A DNA stretch of 64,000 nt from a virus. Below the pieces are notes generated by a model that had not been told where the DNA came from, made no database searches, and worked only from the letters and a program-made list of their open reading frames with translations. The stretch covers positions 1 through 64,000 of IMG/VR virus record IMGVR_UViG_3300014913_001094; one strand, given 5' to 3'. Below are positions 16 to 19,960 of the stretch, one piece after another (position 1 is the first letter of the stretch; each line of letters begins with the position of its first letter). Both the position numbers and the translations under genes were made by a program.

Positions 16-918
16 ATGAAAAACAATTTAAAAGGTTTTACTAAAGAGGCAACATCAGTTAAGGAGATTCTTTGGGAATATCTGATGAATGGTTACATAA
101 ATCATCTCAAAGGACTTAGAAGTAATAATGATGTCTGGTGGACAAGTAATGAGCCTGTTGATTGGGAAAAGCTTAGTCAAGAATTAAACATTCCTGGTGC
201 ACTAGTTCATCCAGTAGAAACCTTTATAACTGATACGGCTGATCTTTATTGGGATGAAGATGAAGAGAAATGTCGCATCCTCGGTCAATTGTTAGATGAG
301 AACGATCTTGCCTTAATATTTAACTCATTGGAGCCACAGTTTATTGAGGAAATGAATAAGGTACTCGAAAGTCCACCATTTTCTGAGAAGGAAGAAGAAG
401 ACGATGACGATTGGGCTCCTCCTTTTCAACCTCAAAAAACGCGCAGACAAGAGATTGATGAAGCTAAGCGGATGTTGGATCTTCAAACTCACAATCAAAT
501 TAAACTACTTCGATTAGCAATGACTCTCGACGAAAAGGGCTTTTCAAAAGAGGCTGGTACTTTAGATCAAATTGTCAAAGAAGCCTCTTGTCCTTATTGT
601 GGAGATCCTGCTGGCTATCAAGGGTTTAATAGAGTAGATTGTCCTTCTTGTGGTGGAAGAGCAAAAGGAAGAAGTCAAGAACCTGAGCCTCCTCGATATG
701 CTTTAACAGATACTGAAGAGACAATAGGTAAATATCGCACTCTAGAGGAAGTTGAACAAGCAAAGCGAGATTACATAAATAAAGCAGCAGAAGAGGCATA
801 TTACACATATGACGAAGAAGATCCTCTTTTTGAGGGATATCTTTCTGAAGGACATTTGAGAGATTATCTAGATGATATATTAGAGATTGTAGATCTCGAT
901 ACATTGTACTCTGGTTAA
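16..918 (+). CDS. Hypothetical protein with helical-hairpin motif and zinc ribbon
   Basis: I do not recognise the family. The 300-residue product is hydrophilic and acidic. Residues 164-191 form an amphipathic helical hairpin of the recurring L-A-x-x-L-D-x-K-G-x-x-x-E-A-x-x-L-D-x-I type found in about ten other genes here. A four-cysteine zinc ribbon follows directly (C192, C195, C209, C212). The hairpin-plus-ribbon pair recurs at 7174-7370, where the ribbon lies in a -1 frame. The C-terminal third is charged and predicted helical. The start follows an AAAGG-like Shine-Dalgarno and the stop lies ten bases before the next gene, so it is probably co-transcribed with the virion genes downstream. 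Function is unknown; a virion or packaging role is inference from position only. Confidence 0.8.
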   Translation: MKNNLKGFTKEATSVKEILWEYLMNGYINHLKGLRSNNDVWWTSNEPVDWEKLSQELNIPGALVHPVETFITDTADLYWDEDEEKCRILGQLLDENDLALIFNSLEPQFIEEMNKVLESPPFSEKEEEDDDDWAPPFQPQKTRRQEIDEAKRMLDLQTHNQIKLLRLAMTLDEKGFSKEAGTLDQIVKEASCPYCGDPAGYQGFNRVDCPSCGGRAKGRSQEPEPPRYALTDTEETIGKYRTLEEVEQAKRDYINKAAEEAYYTYDEEDPLFEGYLSEGHLRDYLDDILEIVDLDTLYSG

Positions 919-2719: not shown

Positions 2720-5053
2720 ATGAAAAAGATATTTGCCAATTATCTAGAACATCTTAAGCGTACTATGGAAGATCGAAGTACTAATAAGAAACAGTCTTCC
2801 GTTGAAGATGCTCTTCAAGATTTTGCAGAGCGTACTGGATTGTCAGAAATGCAAAAGCGTGCTTTACGTCGACAGATTTTTGTTAAACAAGCAATGGATT
2901 TTGTTGTACCTGAAGTAAAAAAAGATAAAGAACGTGTTGATTCTGGTGACGCCCCTCCTTCTATCCTTCCTGGGATTAAACCTGGAGATAAGACTGATAA
3001 AATTCTTCAAAAGAAAAAGAAAAAACCTAGCAACCTTACACGTAGAGACGATTCTTTAACATATGACAAGACTGAATTTGATGCAAAAGATATGGGTGGA
3101 CTCGAGGAGGCTTCGAGCCGCAGACAGAATGTCTATGCTCGCACTAGTCTTCGAGATAAGATTGTTACCCTACAGCAAGAGCTAGTAAGCGATTACATGA
3201 CTCCAGATGGAACTCTAAAAAATCCAGACTGGGATCCAGAGGCGAGTTGGGAGGCTAGAGTAGAACTTGAGTCTGAGATTAATTCTCTGCTCTATGACTA
3301 CCAAGATGCTGTTGAACAACAAAGAGATAAAGAAGAAAAAAAATCACCAAAAGGCAGAGCTCGTAAGAACAACGTAAAGTTTTTAGAGCATTTTGATACA
3401 GCTTTGAAGGTAAAAAATGCAGAGGAGCGAGTACAAGCACTAGGTAGATTAAATGAGCGTGGAATTCAACACGCCTTTGATACAGCTCTTAGTAGTTTTG
3501 AAAAAGAAAAATATTATAAAAAATCACAAGGCTATGATAAGTCTCGTGGTGATTACGTAAGATGTATGATCTGTGAATGGATCAACCCCAATAATCCCAG
3601 CATCTTACCTGTTGAGCATCTTAAGTCTCACGACGAACTATCAACTCAAGATATTGTTCAAGCATATCTCAAGCTATATCCTGAAGGCGCAATGCAGTCT
3701 CGTGAACAAGAATTAGCTGCTTTTACAGATCGAGTTATGAGAACGGCTCTTCATGCAAGACCTACAGAAGCTCCTACGATAATTATAGATCAGGTGCTCA
3801 ACTATACTGATGAGGTTATGTTAGAAATTGTCAAACACCATCTTGCAAGACTTCAAGTAGCACCCTACGAGGTTAATATGGGTGATTTGGCAAATCAAAT
3901 TATAGAAGATGTAAAATCTGATCTGAATGAAGAGTATCCAGGGCAATCGTTTGATCAAGTAGGAGAATTAGATCAAAAGGAAGTCACTTCTGAGGATTTT
4001 CATAAGATTTTGATTACAAATATAAAAGATGCAGCGCGTGAATATGATGGATTAATTGTCAGACGTAGAGCAGTTCAACCTGAACGTAAAATTGAGACCA
4101 AAGAAGAGTTGCCAAAGTTTCAATATGAAAATCCAACAGAAGAAGAAATTAAAGAGAACAGCTTAGTTCCCATTACTTTATCTGTTGATGCAAATGCATG
4201 CTGGAATTGTGGTCAAAATCACCTAATACACGTTAAAAACATACAAAAAGACATAGTTTCTGTAACATGTCCAACATGTGAAAGTTACAGGGAATTGGCA
4301 GTCACCTGGAATTGTCCAAGTTGTGATGATGAAAAGTTCTATGTAATCAGAGATCCTAATGAAAACGACTCCGGTGGTACCAAGAAATACACAATATTTT
4401 GTGATCAATCTAAAATCAATGGTGGTGAGAATGCTGTTGGAAATAGTAAACTTGTACATATCCGTGGACAGGTCCAACAAAGAGTAACAACAGAGCTTGA
4501 AAGCTTTGAAGCAACATCAAGTGAAACTTTTGACGAGAGACTGCAAGTAGCAGACTCTGTTGCTTCCGATCAATATGGATTCGGCAAAGTTGTTATGCTT
4601 GGAGAAGGAAATCAGATATTTGTGGATTTTCCAGAGAACCCTAAAACAACTGAGATTGAGCAGAGTGAAGGTGAAGTAATATTTTTACAAACGAGTCGCC
4701 AAGGTTATTCAGGGCATTATGAAGTCACAGATATAGTTTTTGAAGAAGATAAGATTATTATTAAAATGAGAAACGAAAAGGGTATGATGTTTTCTAAAGA
4801 ACTTTCTTCTTCTCAAGGAAAGCAAGAGATTCCAATAGCAACTGAGGTTGCAAGAGATAGTCTCAAAAAGTCAGACTTAGATAAGAAGAGGATTCGTCGA
4901 TGTGCCTTATTGAAGAGATGTGGTGTGGAGTGTCAAGGACAAGAAGTTGTTGAGATAACGAGACGAGAAGATCCAGTACTTACATATGCTGAAATGACAA
5001 AAAAGCTAATTCGAAGAGCAAAGATAACCAAATACTTACGGAGAAGATCATGA
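2720..5053 (+). CDS. Large hypothetical protein with zinc-finger clusters, 777 aa
   Basis: Unrecognised. The N-terminal 130 residues are charged and probably disordered, with a K-x-A segment (V-K-Q-A) near residue 55. A C-x2-C with later histidines lies near residue 282. A zinc-ribbon cluster lies around residues 495-540 (C-W-N-C...C-P-T-C...C-P-S-C). The C-terminal 100 residues are strongly basic. There are no membrane segments. The size, zinc sites and place upstream of the terminase fit a virion-associated or nucleic-acid-binding protein, but that is inference. The last four bases (ATGA) overlap the next start, a classic coupled junction. Confidence 0.8.
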   Translation: MKKIFANYLEHLKRTMEDRSTNKKQSSVEDALQDFAERTGLSEMQKRALRRQIFVKQAMDFVVPEVKKDKERVDSGDAPPSILPGIKPGDKTDKILQKKKKKPSNLTRRDDSLTYDKTEFDAKDMGGLEEASSRRQNVYARTSLRDKIVTLQQELVSDYMTPDGTLKNPDWDPEASWEARVELESEINSLLYDYQDAVEQQRDKEEKKSPKGRARKNNVKFLEHFDTALKVKNAEERVQALGRLNERGIQHAFDTALSSFEKEKYYKKSQGYDKSRGDYVRCMICEWINPNNPSILPVEHLKSHDELSTQDIVQAYLKLYPEGAMQSREQELAAFTDRVMRTALHARPTEAPTIIIDQVLNYTDEVMLEIVKHHLARLQVAPYEVNMGDLANQIIEDVKSDLNEEYPGQSFDQVGELDQKEVTSEDFHKILITNIKDAAREYDGLIVRRRAVQPERKIETKEELPKFQYENPTEEEIKENSLVPITLSVDANACWNCGQNHLIHVKNIQKDIVSVTCPTCESYRELAVTWNCPSCDDEKFYVIRDPNENDSGGTKKYTIFCDQSKINGGENAVGNSKLVHIRGQVQQRVTTELESFEATSSETFDERLQVADSVASDQYGFGKVVMLGEGNQIFVDFPENPKTTEIEQSEGEVIFLQTSRQGYSGHYEVTDIVFEEDKIIIKMRNEKGMMFSKELSSSQGKQEIPIATEVARDSLKKSDLDKKRIRRCALLKRCGVECQGQEVVEITRREDPVLTYAEMTKKLIRRAKITKYLRRRS

Positions 5054-6846
5054 AAAAAAGAGCCGCAGACTATCCATGGGGTGATCCTCAAGAGCCAGAA
5101 ATTACAGAAGAAGACAAAGAGCGAGCAAAGGAATGGGTTACTCAAACTCCAGAAAAAGCCAAGCAAGAAGGGTTTTACGAACAGGAGCAGAAAGCCGCCT
5201 CCAAGATGTTCTTTCAAGCATGGACCACAGCACGCGGTAAGGGGCGTAGTGCAAATATAATGTACGATGAGCCTCTTAAAATTACAGTTTGGAGATCTCG
5301 AAGTGTAGATCACACAGCCTTCATTAGTCAAATTATGGAAAACATGCTACCATACTATGTAGCTGCCTTGAGAGCTGTTTATCCCGAACTACAACAGCAG
5401 GCATTAGGAAATTCTAAGTCAGCAAGAGATTTGAAACAACGACTTACACTTGTTGATAGACTCATTGGAGAAGGAAGTTACGAGCACGAGTCTCTACAGA
5501 TAGGTGTAGAGAAAGCTTGGGAAGAAAAAGAGAGAATACTACAAGAGAAAAAAGATCAAGGTGGAAGCACAAAGAGACTCAACTCAGAAAGAGATGCCAT
5601 AGAGGCCTTCTATAGTGGTATTTCCTCTTTTCCTGGACTTCAGCAAAACTTTCTTGAACATATTGTTGAGCAAGCTTATACTGATTTTTCAAAGGCTCAC
5701 ACAGGAACGACGGGTCGTTATCCAAATGCTTTGCTTACTTTCTATATGATGGATAATCCATATCCTTACCTCGTTAGTTCTCCTGCTGAATGCAAGACTC
5801 AAGCTGAGCTTGAAGAAAAATATCCAGATGGTACTACGGAAGAAAATCCTGCTCCTGGTGTAGCTTTGGCAGACAAAAGACCAACCTTTGAGGCTTTTCG
5901 TAATTTGGCAGATAAGTGGTTTGTACAGAATGTTCCAAACCCAGACTATAAGCCAATACAATATGGCACGAGCCAGTTTCCAATTGGACCTAAAGGTGAA
6001 GAGTCTTTAAAGAATGATGTTGCCGATCGAGTTTCTGATCTAATGGAAAAGGCAATGTTTACACCTAATTTTTACATTGCTAAACAAGTAACTTCTGCCG
6101 ACTTTGGAGATCAGCCTGGAATCAGACTTCAGGATCTTGGAAAAGAAAAGAAGGGGATTGTTATTCCTGGTTCAGCGCTTAAACCAAGTGAATCAACCTG
6201 GATTCCCAACGTTGAAGAGCGTGACATTACCTCTTCTCCTTCAGGAGGACTATTTACTGGTGAGCCTCCAGAGCGAAAAGAGAAGATAGTTGAAGAGGTA
6301 AAAAAGAAGCCAAGTGGTAAATTCACTCTTCCCAAGGGCTATCCAAAGATCTCTTCAAAGGAAAGTCTTATAAAGACGCCAAAACAACAAATACGTCCAT
6401 CAGCAGACATTTTTAGTAGAGCCTTGATTGAGACTTTTGCTCAGACAGCAGGAGGAGATCTTTGGATTGATGATGGTGGTAAGATCTACGACAGTATGGA
6501 GCAATTGCTTCAGCAAGATCAGTCAGGCGAGGAGATGGATGAGGTAGCCTTTAGAGCGGCCATAAAGGAAGCAGTTGTACAAGACTTAGGAAGTGGACTT
6601 GCCGCTCCCCAACCAGAGGCTCCTGAAGTTCAGCCAACATTTGATATTGTAGAGGAAGAGGATTTTGAAGAAGAAAACGTAATTCAATTACCACAAGAGC
6701 AAGAAGATGAAGTGCTCGCTCCTGCAGCATCTAAAATTAAACGACTCGTTGCATTGGCAGAGCAATTAGATAAGCAAGGATTAACTAAACAAGCAGATCG
6801 TGTTGACCAACAGATACAAAATTTACTGGACAAAATGTCCAAATAA
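5050..6846 (+). CDS. Hypothetical protein, 598 aa, C-terminal helical hairpin
   Basis: Unrecognised. It is mostly helical and charged, with proline-rich linkers (about residues 380-440) and an acidic stretch (about 520-560). The recurring hairpin sits at the extreme C-terminus (about residues 564-590, L-A-E-Q-L-D-K-Q-G-L-T-K-Q-A). It overlaps the preceding gene by ATGA. A C-terminal hairpin after an acidic linker is repeated in other proteins here (for example 14608-15213), suggesting that the hairpin is a detachable docking or targeting tag. Confidence 0.8.
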   Translation: MKKRAADYPWGDPQEPEITEEDKERAKEWVTQTPEKAKQEGFYEQEQKAASKMFFQAWTTARGKGRSANIMYDEPLKITVWRSRSVDHTAFISQIMENMLPYYVAALRAVYPELQQQALGNSKSARDLKQRLTLVDRLIGEGSYEHESLQIGVEKAWEEKERILQEKKDQGGSTKRLNSERDAIEAFYSGISSFPGLQQNFLEHIVEQAYTDFSKAHTGTTGRYPNALLTFYMMDNPYPYLVSSPAECKTQAELEEKYPDGTTEENPAPGVALADKRPTFEAFRNLADKWFVQNVPNPDYKPIQYGTSQFPIGPKGEESLKNDVADRVSDLMEKAMFTPNFYIAKQVTSADFGDQPGIRLQDLGKEKKGIVIPGSALKPSESTWIPNVEERDITSSPSGGLFTGEPPERKEKIVEEVKKKPSGKFTLPKGYPKISSKESLIKTPKQQIRPSADIFSRALIETFAQTAGGDLWIDDGGKIYDSMEQLLQQDQSGEEMDEVAFRAAIKEAVVQDLGSGLAAPQPEAPEVQPTFDIVEEEDFEEENVIQLPQEQEDEVLAPAASKIKRLVALAEQLDKQGLTKQADRVDQQIQNLLDKMSK

Positions 6847-6864
6847 TTGAGAGAGGACTCACAA

Positions 6865-7287
6865 ATGTCAGACGTACTAAGAGAATTTTGGGACAGTAAG
6901 TATGGAAAAGGTCTTATGAAGAAGGCTTCTACAGAGAAGAAAGCATTTGATCAGGATTCGTACTATGAAAGTGGACTACAAGGACCAACACAAGATGAAA
7001 TTAAACTTGCACATCCAGGCGGCGGAACAGATATTCCCGATGTCGGTCCAGGTGATGCACATTTTGAGACAGTTGATGAGGTAGCGCAGGTAATGGAAGA
7101 GGTTGCTCGCAAAGCTCCAACATGCACTGAAGGTTCCCTCAAAGGTATTTCTAAAAAGGCTAAAATGAACACACTCCAAAAGCTTGCTCAAATTGCTGAT
7201 CAACTTGATCAAGCAGGTCTTTCTGAAGAAGCTGATATGATTGACGCTATTATTCAGGAAGAAATGAAGGTGGCTGGAAAAAAGTAA
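6865..7287 (+). CDS. Hairpin-motif protein; likely zero-frame product of a -1 frameshift gene
   Basis: The start is taken at ATG 6865, seven to eight bases after GAGAGGA; an in-frame TTG exists at 6847. The 140-residue product carries A-H-P-G-G-G-T-D-I-P-D-V, a box almost identical to one in the protease-scaffold protein (about 22499-22560). A helical hairpin (residues about 104-133) follows. The gene ends in the heptamer A-AAA-AAG then TAA. A -1 shift there would fuse it to a zinc ribbon and to the ORF ending at 7631, giving about 255 residues. The hairpin-plus-ribbon order then matches the protein at 16-918. Function is unknown. Confidence 0.75.
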   Translation: MSDVLREFWDSKYGKGLMKKASTEKKAFDQDSYYESGLQGPTQDEIKLAHPGGGTDIPDVGPGDAHFETVDEVAQVMEEVARKAPTCTEGSLKGISKKAKMNTLQKLAQIADQLDQAGLSEEADMIDAIIQEEMKVAGKK

Positions 7288-7312
7288 TCAAAGAGGCATC
7301 TTGTCCTCTTTG
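7267..7312 (+). promoter_or_regulatory. Candidate programmed -1 ribosomal frameshift signal
   Basis: The slippery heptamer A-AAA-AAG occupies 7278-7284 with zero-frame codons AAA AAG, and the TAA stop is at 7285-7287. After a 4-base spacer, CAAAGAGG (7289-7296) can pair with CCTCTTTG (7305-7312) as an 8-bp stem with an 8-base loop. AAGG at 7267-7270 is a Shine-Dalgarno-like stimulator 7 bases upstream. This is the three-part layout of E. coli dnaX. The -1 frame encodes a zinc ribbon whose close relative is fused in frame in the protein at 16-918. An undercalled A-run in the assembly would look the same. Confidence 0.65.
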
Positions 7313-7376
7313 TGGAGACCCAGCAGGCTATCAAGGATTTAAAAAAATAGAATGTCCAAGCTGCAATGGCGATCCA

Positions 7377-7631
7377 ATGAATTTTAAGAAGAACCAACAT
7401 AAGATTTGGGATAACGAGCAAGAGTTGATAGTCACTCTTACAGATGTTGCTAGTGAACAGGAACTTAATGAAAGATTGAGTCAAGTAGATCAGGATATAC
7501 TTGATCGAGCTTTTGATACTCCTTTTTTTGCTCAACCAGTAGAGCCTAGAGACGATGAGCCAGGTATAGATCATCTAACGACGACATTTGATAGATGGTG
7601 GCAAGAAACAGTAGACTGGGCAACGCAATAA
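7377..7631 (+). CDS. C-terminal part of frameshifted gene (zinc ribbon upstream in the same frame)
   Basis: The first ATG in this frame is 7377, giving 84 acidic residues of unknown function. The frame is open back to 7284 and encodes a four-cysteine ribbon (C-P-L-C-G-D-P-A-G-Y-Q-G-F...C-P-S-C) nearly identical to that in the protein at 16-918. The ATG has no convincing Shine-Dalgarno and would cut the ribbon off. Expression by -1 frameshift from the gene at 6865 is therefore more likely than independent translation. Confidence 0.55.
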   Translation: MNFKKNQHKIWDNEQELIVTLTDVASEQELNERLSQVDQDILDRAFDTPFFAQPVEPRDDEPGIDHLTTTFDRWWQETVDWATQ

Positions 7632-7727: not shown

Positions 7728-7766
7728 AGGTAAAGCTCATTTTGAGCTTTACCTGTCTTTATTTTA
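7728..7766 (+). terminator. Terminator-like 12-bp hairpin before the terminase gene
   Basis: AGGTAAAGCTCA (7728-7739) pairs perfectly with TGAGCTTTACCT (7743-7754) around a TTT loop. It is followed by GTCTTTATTTTA, a U-rich but interrupted tail. It lies 25 bases upstream of the terminase ATG. It may end the upstream transcript or shape the terminase leader. Confidence 0.6.
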
Positions 7767-7779
7767 TTGAAAGAAATAT

Positions 7780-9594
7780 ATGGCTAAGAAAAAACAAGAT
7801 GATATGCCATTCCTTACTGGTGATCTTTTATCAGATATGGCAATTTTAGATCCAATTGCTTTTGTGGAAAAGACCCTAACGGTTGATGGTAATCCATTTT
7901 TATTATCAGATTGTGGTAGAGATTATCTACATGAGATTTATAGATATCTTTGCTTAGAGGCACCTGGACCAAAAGGAAAGCCATGTGTTATTAGAAAAGG
8001 TCGTCAGGTTGAAATGACGACAACAGCATCTTGCATTTCGTTGTATATTGCAACAAGCGGTGCCTTTGACCATATTCGTGGACTTCATGCATTTCCGCAG
8101 ATTGAGCAGGCTCGTAGATATTCGAAGATTGTCTTTAGTCCTCGTGTAAAAGAGTCAATTAATGGAGCATTGCAGTCTCGTCTCAAAGGAGATGGTTCAG
8201 TGATGTCACAAGAATTCACTGAAGGAAACTTCATTATGATTGAGGGTTCAGGTGAGTCTGGTGACCGTCTTCGTGGTACTCCGTTAGATTATGTGCTGTT
8301 TGATGAGATTCAGGACTTACCTCGAGCAGCTCGAGAAAATACTCAGGAAGCACTGTCTCATAGTAAGTTTGGCCCTCCTGGTTTTGGTTTAGAAATGGAC
8401 TTTGGAACACCAAAAGAAGAGGGTTCTGACTTTCATAGATTATGGATAGATTCCGATCAAAGACATTATTTTGTTAAATGTCCACATTGTGGTCACTATC
8501 AAATTTTGTATTATGATACGGCTCCTGGTAAACGCTTACTTAAGACCAATCTTGCTGAAGGACGTATGATAAAATGTAATGATCGAGAAGATCAAGGTTG
8601 CCAGCAAATCTATGATAAGAGATTGGGAATTAAACATGGTAAGTGGATGCCAACAGTAGAAAATCCCGATACAGCATCGCGACGCGGATATCATATTGAT
8701 CAACTACTGGTTCCTGATATTACACGTGAATCAATAGATAAGAAGTTGGAAGATCGTACTGAAAGAGCGTTTGCAAATGAAGTAATGGGCTTATTCTACA
8801 GTGGTAGAGACACTGGTCCTTCCTTCGCTCAAGTTGTAGAAGTCGTTACAACAGAGCCAAGTACTTTTGATTGGCATATTAATGCTACAGCGCAAGATCG
8901 CTTCACGTGGGCGGGAATTGACTGGGGACAGAGAATTTCAGGTGAAGATGATGAGGGTGCAGGTGGATATACAGTGTTCGTAGCCATCTCTCGCCTCCCC
9001 AATGGTAAATTTAGATTAGAGCGTGCTGAACGATTGGAGCAGGTTAAAGTAATTGATGGACAACTTGATGACATTATCAAGTGGATAAGGTTATATAAGT
9101 GTAGAGTGGTTTGTGCGGATCATGGTTTTGGACATGTTCAAAATCAAGAATTAATGGAGAGGTATCCAGAGATAGTAAAGAAGATATATTCTTCTGCAGG
9201 TACAAATCAAGCATTTAATTATAAGCCTAAGGAAAAACAAATTACAATAGATAAGCACAGAGTCTTTGAAGAAGTGTATGACCTTATGCTTGATCAAAAG
9301 GGCTTTGCATTTCCATATAGTGAGCCAGCAAAAGTAGAGTGGCTCTGTCGACATCTATCAAATGTTGAGATTGTAAGTAAAACCAATCAATCTGGTCGCG
9401 GTAAGAAGATGTATCAAAAACAAGGTGTAACACAACCAATTGATGGTGCCGCGGCACTTGTTTATGCATATGCAGCATACAAGTTTCAGCAGACATCTGG
9501 ATTTAGCAATATGGATACGGGCGGATTTAGTGGAGGACGTAACATGCCAGCACCTGGTGGCGCGATTGTAAGACGACGAGCAGGGAGAAGGTAA
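7780..9594 (+). CDS. terL: Terminase large subunit (DNA-packaging ATPase-nuclease)
   Basis: This is the motor that pumps the genome into the prohead and cuts it. The N-terminal ATPase domain has a Walker A-like R-K-G-R-Q-V-E-M-T-T (72-81) and Walker B Y-V-L-F-D-E (171-176, catalytic E176). A zinc-binding insertion has C234, C237, C266 and C274. The RNase H-like nuclease domain has acidic residues in G-I-D-W-G (D381), C-A-D-H-G (D447) and D-G-A-A-A-L (D555). The length, 604 residues, is normal for TerL. The zinc insertion resembles GpA-type terminases. The ATG follows an AAAGAAA sequence after a terminator-like hairpin. No obvious small subunit was recognised nearby. Confidence 0.93.
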   Translation: MAKKKQDDMPFLTGDLLSDMAILDPIAFVEKTLTVDGNPFLLSDCGRDYLHEIYRYLCLEAPGPKGKPCVIRKGRQVEMTTTASCISLYIATSGAFDHIRGLHAFPQIEQARRYSKIVFSPRVKESINGALQSRLKGDGSVMSQEFTEGNFIMIEGSGESGDRLRGTPLDYVLFDEIQDLPRAARENTQEALSHSKFGPPGFGLEMDFGTPKEEGSDFHRLWIDSDQRHYFVKCPHCGHYQILYYDTAPGKRLLKTNLAEGRMIKCNDREDQGCQQIYDKRLGIKHGKWMPTVENPDTASRRGYHIDQLLVPDITRESIDKKLEDRTERAFANEVMGLFYSGRDTGPSFAQVVEVVTTEPSTFDWHINATAQDRFTWAGIDWGQRISGEDDEGAGGYTVFVAISRLPNGKFRLERAERLEQVKVIDGQLDDIIKWIRLYKCRVVCADHGFGHVQNQELMERYPEIVKKIYSSAGTNQAFNYKPKEKQITIDKHRVFEEVYDLMLDQKGFAFPYSEPAKVEWLCRHLSNVEIVSKTNQSGRGKKMYQKQGVTQPIDGAAALVYAYAAYKFQQTSGFSNMDTGGFSGGRNMPAPGGAIVRRRAGRR

Positions 9595-11814: not shown

Positions 11815-13524
11815 ATGAAAAAACAAAGCAAGATTCAATTAATTAAGATAGCCGTGCAGCTCGAAGAAAAGGGATATGCTAAGTTTGCTAGTTTTTTAGA
11901 TAAGATTGCGGTTGGAGAGTCTGTAACATTTAAAAATTTCGATGATGGTAAGCTTTGGAGTGCACGAGAAATAGAAGATATCGCGGAAGAAGCAGCACAA
12001 ATGTGTGTTGATGAAGGTAATTTTGATTCTATGGATGACTACGAAGCTGTAGAATATCAGGAGCAGTTTATCAGGGATGCTGAAGAAGCAATGAAGGGCA
12101 GAAAGCCGGAGCCAGAAAGAAAACCTCAAGAGCAACCTCAAAGACGCGGTCCTATTGTTGTAACTCCAGAAGATAGGATAAAAAATCAGATAAGAAATGA
12201 AATGCGTGCCTTGTTGGGTATATATCCTAATCTTACTGAGAAGCAGTTGATCGAAGCATGGAAAGAAGAGTCTAATCGTTTTGATAGGACAGGGCGTGGC
12301 AGCCTTGCCGACGGAGCAAATGCTATCGTGGTGGCTAAGGAAATCATCAATAAGCAAGTTGTTCCCAAAGAAAAAGTGCAGATTAAAGAAGAAAAGCGAA
12401 TTAGAGAAGAAGAGCGAATTAAGTCAATTCCAATCATACCACTAGAAGAGCAAACCCTCAAAAATAGTGTAGGAGAAGGAGATCCTGTTATAATTCTTCC
12501 AGAAGGAGATTCGGATGCAGGACCTTGGATAAGAGAGAGTATTAAAGCTAAGGATGATAGTATTGTACCTGATTTCGGTAAGGACGATGTAATTAAAGGA
12601 ATGCAAGGCTTACTGACTCAATGTGCAAAAAAAGGAAAACAAATAATTCAAATAACAAGACCATTGAAGGAAGAAAATCCAAGACAACATACAGACGAGT
12701 CTCTAACAATAAAACCAACGTCGCATTATAAGAGAAAGGATGGTTTTATTCTTGAGCCCAATACAGGATATTATGGAATAGAACATGAGATTGACGGTGT
12801 TCCTGCTATAATACTTATGAATACAAAACCTATGCGTGCAAGAGTGAACAGAGATGGCACATTAGTGCGATATAAGGCAGAAGGAAACGCAACATTTATT
12901 ATTCCATTATACCCAGATGGTATAAGTTGGGTAGATTTCTTAAAAGAGAAAACAAAGAATGAAGTTCACGATTATATTAATCAGAAAAACAAAGAAGGCG
13001 AATCAGGATGGAAATGGATGATGCGTATTCCCACAAATTTGGCCTTCTTGAAAGAAAAAGTGCTGCTGGGTAAAGTATCTAGTCAAAGAGTTGAACTACT
13101 CAAGCTCGCTATGCGTCTTGAAGAAAAAGGACACCCCAAATTTGCTTCTCTTCTCGATAAGATTGCAATATCATTCTCTCCAGAAAAGAGACCATCTGTA
13201 TCAGAAGATCCAGATTATGATGTGCCTGCTAATTATCCTTTAGGCTGGCCAGAGCCTGGAGATATTGTTGAGATGAAATCAGATTATGTAGTAAGAGATA
13301 GGCATGGACAATATAGGCTTTATAAAGGACAAAGGGGTTTCTGTGAAGACATAGAAGATGGTAAACCAGCAATATATTTTGATTTAAGAGACAGCTCTCT
13401 GGCAATGGCTCCTCCTATATCTGGAGATCTCGTTAGAATAGTACAAAAAAGAGTAGGCGATCCTGCTCATGGCGCCGTTCTCCCAGGAGAAGACATGGAA
13501 GATCCAATGGATTGGATCAATTAG
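11815..13524 (+). CDS. Hypothetical protein with two helical-hairpin motifs, 569 aa
   Basis: Unrecognised. One copy of the hairpin motif is at the N-terminus (residues about 10-33, L-E-E-K-G-Y-A-K-F-A-S-F-L-D) and a nearly identical one at about 425-451 (L-E-E-K-G-H-P-K-F-A-S-L-L-D). Between them is a charged helical segment and a beta-rich domain (about 290-400). The C-terminal 100 residues are beta-rich with an SH3-like look (P-G-D-I-V-E-M...). The internal duplication suggests two hairpin-headed proteins joined in one gene. Confidence 0.78.
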   Translation: MKKQSKIQLIKIAVQLEEKGYAKFASFLDKIAVGESVTFKNFDDGKLWSAREIEDIAEEAAQMCVDEGNFDSMDDYEAVEYQEQFIRDAEEAMKGRKPEPERKPQEQPQRRGPIVVTPEDRIKNQIRNEMRALLGIYPNLTEKQLIEAWKEESNRFDRTGRGSLADGANAIVVAKEIINKQVVPKEKVQIKEEKRIREEERIKSIPIIPLEEQTLKNSVGEGDPVIILPEGDSDAGPWIRESIKAKDDSIVPDFGKDDVIKGMQGLLTQCAKKGKQIIQITRPLKEENPRQHTDESLTIKPTSHYKRKDGFILEPNTGYYGIEHEIDGVPAIILMNTKPMRARVNRDGTLVRYKAEGNATFIIPLYPDGISWVDFLKEKTKNEVHDYINQKNKEGESGWKWMMRIPTNLAFLKEKVLLGKVSSQRVELLKLAMRLEEKGHPKFASLLDKIAISFSPEKRPSVSEDPDYDVPANYPLGWPEPGDIVEMKSDYVVRDRHGQYRLYKGQRGFCEDIEDGKPAIYFDLRDSSLAMAPPISGDLVRIVQKRVGDPAHGAVLPGEDMEDPMDWIN

Positions 13525-18369: not shown

Positions 18370-18486
18370 ATGGCTCTTTTTAAAAAGGTAGTAGCAGGTA
18401 TTAAAAAGGTTATTACCGATAAAGAAATCAAAAAAGTTGAAGATGAAAAAGAAGCTGAAAAGGCTAAAGATGAAAAAAAAGATTAA
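18370..18486 (+). CDS. Small Lys/Glu-rich peptide, 38 aa
   Basis: ATG 18370 lies three bases after the DUF5662 stop. The peptide begins M-A-L-F-K-K-V-V-A-G like its neighbour's M-A-L-F-K-K-I-T-A-S and continues as a charged helix ending K-K-D at 18486. It overlaps the next gene's ATG (18470) by 17 bases. The shared N-terminus suggests a partial duplication of the upstream gene's start; it may serve as a coupled leader. Confidence 0.5.
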   Translation: MALFKKVVAGIKKVITDKEIKKVEDEKEAEKAKDEKKD

Positions 18487-19960
18487 AACTGCTCAAAACG
18501 AACATCACACATTGACTGTCAAAAAGGCTACTCAGCTTTATGTCATAGGTGGTGTTGGAGAAGCAGAAGATGATGATGATCGACTTCTTTTTTGGTATGC
18601 AATACGTAAATATCCCACTATGTCAAGAGAGATGAAGAGGGAAACCGATACCCAGAGTTTAACTGAGTATATACAAAAGAATCGCCCAGAATGGACTGAA
18701 GGTGAAGAGCCACCGCTCGGTTATGTAGAGTTTTATAAAACTTTACCAGAGCAATTTGGTGAAGGCTCGTCTGAAAGTGCTAGTAAAAATAAGGTTCCAG
18801 GTAAAACTACAATAATTGTGCCACCAACTCCTATTGAAAATTTTAAAGAGCCAACTGGAGATATAAAAAGTGACACACAAGCCGTAATTGAGATTATTAA
18901 AAGAATACGCCAGTTAATTTGGGACTTCCCTGTACAAGGAATTTTTACAGACAATGCAGGATTTCAAGGACAACAACTACGTGATTATATAGGTCAGAAT
19001 TTAATAGCGAGTAGTAAGCATATGACCAAAAAAGCACAACAATCTTTTAAAATTAAGCCAAAAACAGTTCGTTATATTTCTGTTGACACTGGAGAAGTCT
19101 TTTCTAGTGAACAAGCAGTACAAAATGCAATACAAGACCATGTTGATCAGCAGTCCCCGATGGCTGCTGCTGCGTCTAACAATAGAGGAGGAAAAATGAA
19201 AAAAGTGATTGCAGAACTTCTCTCAATTGCTGATTCTCTCGATGAAGCTGGTGCACATGCAGAGGCAGACGAGATTATGACAATTCTTACAGAATTAAAG
19301 TCTGAGGATGATGTAGAGCAAGTAGAAGTAGAAGAGACAGTAGGTGATCAAACACTTCAAGCAAAGAGTGTAATTCAGACTTTAGTCCGAGTTGCTGATT
19401 CGCTTGATGCAAAAGGTGCCACAAAAGAAGCTCAGATTGCAGATAATCTTTTACAAGATATGCAAACAGCTCTTCCACAAGCTTTTACGCCTTTTAGTCA
19501 ACTTGAAACTCCAATTCAAGAGGCTCCAGCTTCAGAGATTGAAGTCCCAGCTCAAGAAGAGGTAATAGTTGAAGAACCTAAAATGACTACCTTTGATCAG
19601 CTTGAAGAGATTATTGAAGAGGAACAAGCTGAGCCAGTAGTTGAAGAGACACCAGCTGAGCCAGTAGTTGAAGAGACACCAGCTGAGCCAGTAGTTGAAG
19701 CTGAACCACAAGAGCCTGTTGAGCCTACTATAGAAGGCGTTGTTGAGCCCGAAGTAGAACATGATGTTTTGACTCTCGAGCAGTTCCAAGAGGTAATTGA
19801 TGGTATGAAATATCGCTTTTCTCAAGGGAAACAGCGTGTACAGTATGAAAAGATTATGGAACAAGCTGAACGAGCAGCAGAATATAAGCGTGCCTATGAA
19901 GAGTGGCTCACGTCTGCACACGAGATGTTTGGTGATACTCCAATTAGACTAGATGTATAA
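18470..19960 (+). CDS. Hypothetical protein with two helical hairpins and Pro/Glu repeats
   Basis: The start is taken at ATG 18470; an in-frame TTG lies at 18437. The product is 496 residues of unknown family. The N-terminal part (1-235) is globular and includes a K-A-T-Q-L-Y segment. Two copies of the hairpin motif follow (nt 19205-19290 and 19376-19460), then an acidic Pro-Val-Glu repeat and a helical C-terminus. A very strong Shine-Dalgarno and in-frame ATG at 19196 suggest that a shorter 254-residue product, starting exactly at the first hairpin, is also made. Confidence 0.75.
   Translation: MKKKIKTAQNEHHTLTVKKATQLYVIGGVGEAEDDDDRLLFWYAIRKYPTMSREMKRETDTQSLTEYIQKNRPEWTEGEEPPLGYVEFYKTLPEQFGEGSSESASKNKVPGKTTIIVPPTPIENFKEPTGDIKSDTQAVIEIIKRIRQLIWDFPVQGIFTDNAGFQGQQLRDYIGQNLIASSKHMTKKAQQSFKIKPKTVRYISVDTGEVFSSEQAVQNAIQDHVDQQSPMAAAASNNRGGKMKKVIAELLSIADSLDEAGAHAEADEIMTILTELKSEDDVEQVEVEETVGDQTLQAKSVIQTLVRVADSLDAKGATKEAQIADNLLQDMQTALPQAFTPFSQLETPIQEAPASEIEVPAQEEVIVEEPKMTTFDQLEEIIEEEQAEPVVEETPAEPVVEETPAEPVVEAEPQEPVEPTIEGVVEPEVEHDVLTLEQFQEVIDGMKYRFSQGKQRVQYEKIMEQAERAAEYKRAYEEWLTSAHEMFGDTPIRLDV
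19184..19198 (+). promoter_or_regulatory. Internal ribosome binding site and in-frame ATG
   Basis: AGAGGAGG (19184-19191) lies five bases before ATG 19196, which is in frame with the gene at 18470. This is a stronger Shine-Dalgarno than at most gene starts in the window. It would give a 254-residue C-terminal protein beginning M-K-K-V-I-A-E-L-L-S, at the boundary of the hairpin module. Confidence 0.6.
19628..19700 (+). repeat. 27-bp tandem repeat encoding A-E-P-V-V-E-E-T-P
   Basis: Two full copies and a partial third copy of a 27-base unit start at 19628, 19655 and 19682. They are almost identical at nucleotide level and extend an acidic Pro/Glu-rich linker. Such repeats usually expand by slippage and act as flexible spacers. 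Confidence 0.8.

Follow-up and report, generated by a model that had tools for sequence, protein, structure and literature searches.

The window analysed here comprises bases 1-64000 of the 91,453-base IMG/VR virus record IMGVR_UViG_3300014913_001094, in which genes are densely laid out and the 85 called ORFs are all on the plus strand. From its terminase and portal genes, the record is identified as a large tailed phage; the nearest cultured-phage relative of the portal gene is the portal of Bacillus phage G (35%). The window portal has no insertions, in contrast to those of relatives (L089 3853-8109; L027, L028, L029, L032, L033 and L035), which have large in-frame ones, possibly inteins, at a small number of recurrent positions (around window portal residues 161, 280, 320 and 380).

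Beside the terminase gene lies a short gene that we denote the frame-0 gene (Table 1). Its proper start is ATG 6865, giving predicted products of 140 aa and, by way of the -1 frame, 255 aa. The C-terminal helical-hairpin motif of the shorter product forms two helices in a low-confidence structure model. This motif (LxxLAxxLDxxGxxxEAxxLDxI) recurs, often in terminal position, in many proteins of the head and packaging region of this phage and its relatives; in the window it is found in genes 16-918, 5050-6846, 6865-7287, 11815-13524 (two copies) and 18437-19960 (two weaker copies). Family searches with the frame-0 protein gave no convincing match, and AlphaFold models of the protein and of its extension were too uncertain for use (pLDDT 48 and 55). 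The position beside the terminase suggests that the frame-0 protein belongs to a head or packaging module; a part for either form in assembling or packaging the head can be conjectured from gene position.

Direct reading of the sequence at the end of the gene gives ...GAAATGAAGGTGGCTGG AAAAAAG TAA T CAAAGAGG CATCTTGT CCTCTTTG TGG..., bearing out a preliminary description in which A-AAA-AAG, a 4-base spacer and an 8-bp stem occur exactly at the stop codon. The heptamer follows the pattern X_XXZ_ZZN in phase with the upstream frame. A Shine-Dalgarno (SD)-like AAGG had also been noted at 7267-7270; an SD-like motif is indeed present, and is better described as AGGTG/GGTGG within 7268-7273, 6-7 nt 5′ of the heptamer. 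Both AGGTG and GGTGG are among the experimentally stimulatory SD-like motifs, and the accompanying rules place the SD 6-17 nt before the second base of the slippery motif and a G-C-closed hairpin of 17-140 nt so that it starts 4-10 nt behind it (PMC4066793). The SD-like motif found here falls within this distance; 12% of random positions have one. The stem-loop (arms 7289-7296 and 7305-7312; spacer TAAT, 7285-7288) is 24 nt long and C-G closed. Its 4-nt spacer is among the shortest usually seen, and its -0.4 kcal/nt is reached at 1% of random positions. The stem itself is modest (8 bp, 4 GC, z-score -1.98).

Table 1. Features at and around the end of the frame-0 gene (positions in the window).
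Feature	Position	Strand	Remarks
Paralogous ribbon IVKEASCPYCGDPAGYQGFNRVDCPSCGG	571..657	+	In frame behind helical hairpin in gene 16-918 (residues 186-214)
Shine-Dalgarno AGAGAGGA of frame-0 gene	6850..6857	+	From sequence; gene start aligns with orthologue starts
Frame-0 gene, ATG 6865, 140 aa, C-terminus ...IIQEEMKVAGKK and stop	6865..7287	+	Orthologues in three related contigs
Helical-hairpin motif LQKLAQIADQLDQAGLSEEADMIDAIIQ, C-terminus of frame-0 product	7180..7263	+	Repeated in several phage proteins
SD-like motif AGGTGG (contains AGGTG and GGTGG)	7268..7273	+	Motif list and 6-17 nt rule, PMC4066793
Slippery heptamer A_AAA_AAG	7278..7284	+	In phase with frame 0 (GGA AAA AAG TAA)
-1 frame extension, 115 codons	7284..7631	+	Stop TAA 7629-7631; open upstream only to TGA 7242-7244
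Frame-0 stop TAA	7285..7287	+	Immediately 3′ of heptamer; same stop position in orthologues L102 and L106
Stem-loop, perfect 8-bp stem CAAAGAGG/CCTCTTTG, 8-nt loop	7289..7312	+	4-nt spacer; -9.6 kcal/mol (-0.40 per nt)
Four-cysteine zinc ribbon CPLCGDPAGYQGFKKIECPSC	7302..7364	+	-1 frame
Intrinsic-terminator-like stem	7728..7754	+	Between -1 extension and terminase gene
Terminase large subunit	7780..9594	+	Synteny anchor
Predicted fusion-junction peptides VAGKKVIK / EASCPLCGDPAGYQGFK

A scan of the whole 91-kb record for in-phase heptamers of the form X_XXW_WWN (W = A or T) returned 73, accompanied by an SD in 11 cases, by a comparable hairpin in two and by both in two. The other heptamer with both lies at a gene start, where the SD is the gene's own and no -1 extension follows; the window site is the only one of the 73 to combine an SD-like motif, a hairpin of -0.4 kcal/nt or lower and an orphan -1 extension. 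A_AAA_AAR occurs in phase 15 times in 29,272 codons, with both stimulators and an orphan -1 extension only here. An 8-bp stem at the right distance is present at 0.35% of genome positions. Among synonymous recodings of this peptide, 0.41% contain one (none do with the paralogue's Tyr), and the paralogue region folds to -3.0 kcal/mol compared with -10.3 kcal/mol here; the stem is thus not dictated by the peptide. Relative to dinucleotide shuffles, the stability of the fold stands out only moderately (6 of 200 equally stable). Twenty-four other genes have a -1 frame that stays open for at least 60 codons past the stop, and in 23 it enters a neighbouring gene that has a start codon of its own close to or at the overlap. 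In the last (gene 76564-77643), the 70-codon extension coincides with a neighbour read in a different frame, and no heptamer lies close to the gene end.

From TGA 7242 through the ribbon, the -1 frame contains no ATG, GTG or TTG, so the ribbon is unreachable by normal initiation, and independent initiation on it was ruled out. The first start codon (ATG 7377) lies behind the ribbon, with no SD-like sequence in front. The codon score of the frame is 0.254; real genes have a median of 0.173, and off-frame reading reaches about -0.07 at its 99th percentile. The ribbon and its in-frame paralogue agree at 21 of 29 residues (72%) and 64 of 87 DNA positions (74%). They had been called nearly identical, which holds for the 17-residue core KEASCPxCGDPAGYQGF (16 of 17 identical) and not for the full 29 residues. 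Of the 23 base differences between the copies, 13 fall in third positions, and the dN/dS between them is 0.18 (permutation p about 0.0003), a value that may reflect divergence before the ribbon reached the frame-0 gene. As judged by codon usage, this dN/dS and 115 open codons, the -1 frame is demonstrably genuine coding sequence, for a protein that is under selection and has no start codon of its own. The four cysteines are conserved in both copies, suggesting that the long form would carry a metal-binding ribbon.

At the DNA level, the resemblance to the paralogous ribbon sets in at 7288, the base after the stop, in keeping with a ribbon attached after a stop already in place. Beyond the ribbon, the similarity between the tails of the two proteins is not significant (17% of shuffles are as good), and we therefore claim the ribbon only as the shared part; the tail of the extension is acidic and probably helical. 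Against DUF7117 (zinc ribbon plus helical tail), the C-terminal part of the 16-918 paralogue scored 23.6 bits, below the Pfam gathering threshold of 28 bits, and the -1 frame protein had no match.

Relatives were located through their terminases (61-62% identity). In contigs L102 (IMGVR 3300035660_000016), L105 and L106, the terminase gene is preceded by an orthologue of the frame-0 gene, at about 50% identity. The L102 and L106 proteins end in IIREETQRTQA and IINEETQQ, respectively, each a few residues past the hairpin, and the L105 protein has another tail of about 70 residues, in frame; from this pattern, the frame-0 stop is the ordinary end of this protein, at which C-terminal additions come and go. 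All three orthologues lack both the ribbon and a terminal A_AAA_AAG; the check for the same heptamer in related phages, suggested in the preliminary description, gave none at these gene ends. Nor did any relative carry the region in one frame without a slippery site, the arrangement named in the preliminary description as contrary to frameshifting: they lack the ribbon, and stop at the frame-0 stop or continue into a different in-frame tail. The carrier thus occurs in relatives without the ribbon, and the ribbon occurs in frame on another protein of the same phage, as in a mobile domain. IMG/VR scans with the -1 protein, the frame-0 protein and an alignment of the two ribbons found no second ribbon copy in a frame-0 gene, and the site is accordingly conserved in no relative. 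A tblastn search of cultured phages gave no match for the fusion, and in the GTDB genomes neither a relative of the terminase nor a near-identical site with A5-A9 turned up. Two other arrangements were seen: in L102, the closest relative, a 361-aa minus-strand gene with repeated cysteine pairs, homing-endonuclease-like, lies between the hairpin gene and the terminase gene (4980-6065), and in L109 a helical hairpin and a cysteine motif are combined in one frame (856-1206).

We infer that the signal is probably a -1 programmed ribosomal frameshift site of the bacterial dnaX/IS type that adds the ribbon to the hairpin protein. The frame-0 stop is native, and the ribbon would be an added domain reached by frameshifting. 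This reading, already proposed in the preliminary description, is supported by the agreement of the elements with published rules (PMC4066793), by the coding character of the -1 frame and by a parallel in contig L113, described below.

The main rival, which we consider unlikely, is that the true sequence has A7, through an assembly error or a strain-level indel, and that the gene is a plain in-frame fusion like gene 16-918. One extra A gives GGA AAA AAA GTA ATC... and an identical fusion peptide; the paralogue is in frame, as is the different tail of the L105 orthologue. However, intact ORFs contain 101 homopolymer runs of at least 6 (66 of A6; 35 T-runs, A7 or A8), and a comparison with relatives, limited to 37 of about 183 half-kb bins, revealed no further split gene. 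An error is not expected to coincide with a stimulatory SD and an 8-bp stem at the right distance, given the rarity of such stems among the recodings, and two of the three orthologues stop at the window's frame-0 stop position.

Somewhat less probable again is that recombination placed the ribbon behind the stop, where it is not (or no longer) expressed, or where only the tail is made from ATG 7377, the heptamer and stem being coincidental. The start of paralogue similarity at 7288, the existence of orthologues that manage without a ribbon and the unremarkable z-score of the stem would all suit such an event. Against it, the 115 codons are open, with typical codon usage and the low dN/dS, the ATG at 7377 lacks an SD-like sequence, and nowhere else in the genome do heptamer, SD and stem come together on an orphan extension. 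We regard as very improbable that RNA polymerase adds one A on the A6 run: the product would be the same fusion, and the A9-A10 runs at comparable gene ends of related phages make slippage plausible there, but A6 followed by G is short, and polymerase slippage has no need of an SD-like motif, a stem or an exact tandem-codon phase. Such slippage usually takes place on runs of 8-9 or more. A minus-strand terminator formed by the stem and the A-run was ruled out, because all 85 genes are on the plus strand and the T-run lies 5 nt off the stem.

Under -1 programmed frameshifting, ribosomes translating the 140-aa hairpin ORF (6865-7287) would pause at A_AAA_AAG, where the stem 4 nt further on and base-pairing between the upstream GGTGG and 16S rRNA would hold them. 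The majority would terminate at the adjacent TAA; in a fraction, both tRNA-Lys would re-pair one base back, as in dnaX and IS elements (PMC5009743, PMC4066793), and the shifted ribosomes would read 115 more codons to add the ribbon and tail, 255 aa in all. The long form is probably the minority product. Domain shuffling may have brought the ribbon to a place immediately after an existing stop, where recoding then allowed it to be retained, and the short and ribbon-bearing forms may cooperate in the virion or in the packaging module beside the terminase.

Comparison with known systems places these features in context. The site had been called dnaX-like, which is apt for its type: Escherichia coli dnaX and a reversed variant of it share with the window site A_AAA_AAG, an upstream SD-like stimulator and a downstream stem-loop. 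Its orientation, however, is not that of E. coli dnaX, in which the shift yields the shorter product, but that of the rarer reversed arrangement, predicted for example for Chlorobium phaeobacteroides, in which a frame-0 stop lies just past the site and the shift gives the longer protein (PMC5009743). In contrast to dnaX, the window gene is an unrelated one with a weaker stem, encoding phage proteins of 140 and 255 aa. Signals of the IS3/IS911 type likewise combine A_AAA_AAG with an SD and a hairpin within experimentally derived spacing (PMC4066793), whereas the product here is a phage protein of the packaging neighbourhood rather than a transposase, and the stem is simple, with no three-way junction or pseudoknot. 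A further parallel is offered by the mobile Ig-like domains that phages T3, A2, A118, A500 and PSA add to coat and tail proteins by frameshifting (PMC5009743). Like the ribbon, these domains are C-terminal; one protein has them in frame and another has them in a shifted frame past a frameshift site, and they yield two products, with and without the domain, as predicted in the window; here, the domain is a zinc ribbon and its carrier is a hairpin protein beside the terminase. We thus suggest a system of a known kind, mobile C-terminal phage domains made by programmed frameshifting, in which a zinc ribbon would replace the Ig-like domain.

Slippery gene ends also occur among phages related to phage G. 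In phage G itself (JN638751), gp22/gp23 (L008 16395-18064), which the depositors annotated as two joined pieces, has A AAA AAG TAG and a long (307-codon) -1 extension as in the window; unlike the window gene, it encodes an endolysin and has weak structure and no SD-like motif. In contig L113 (IMGVR 3300028800_000066), the gene directly upstream of the terminase (3838-4871) ends GGT-A9-CAA-TAA, and its -1 frame runs about 52 codons with a match to phrog_3684 (E 1e-7), a part absent from relatives L112 and L114. This is likely a second, independent case of recoding, by frameshifting or transcriptional slippage; profile comparison found no homology between the L113 and window genes, which agree in position and architecture alone. 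In four phages, genes end in KKK(x) and a stop on A9-A10 (phage G gp5/gp6, L008 1284-2770; L020 4293; L022 2725; L026 3929), and the -1 frame enters at once a conserved protein, IADEVENIPLxLVMDAIS..., whose first possible start lies 23-47 nt behind the stop; phage G annotates separate genes. These loci look like conserved recoding, and the A9-A10 sites could act through polymerase slippage. In L042 (12282) and L046 (3993), an A-rich run closes a gene, and a conserved GLLPIMNPLFNMREICKQ... protein follows in the -1 frame.

The A-rich slippery gene ends in separate lineages, each with a conserved or mobile domain in the -1 frame (at the gene before the terminase in the window and in L113, and at another gene in phage G gp5/gp6, L020, L022 and L026), raise the possibility, which we put forward tentatively and hold to be less than even, that gene-end recoding is a recurrent habit of the phage-G-related group, giving sub-stoichiometric tagged phage proteins. 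For the window phage, the zinc ribbon would join the short list of mobile phage domains that pass from one protein to another and are retained even out of frame. One genome offers a clean in-frame/out-of-frame pair of the same domain. The extension will escape gene callers, and the locus provides a candidate two-product gene, open to testing, close to the packaging genes of uncultured large phages.
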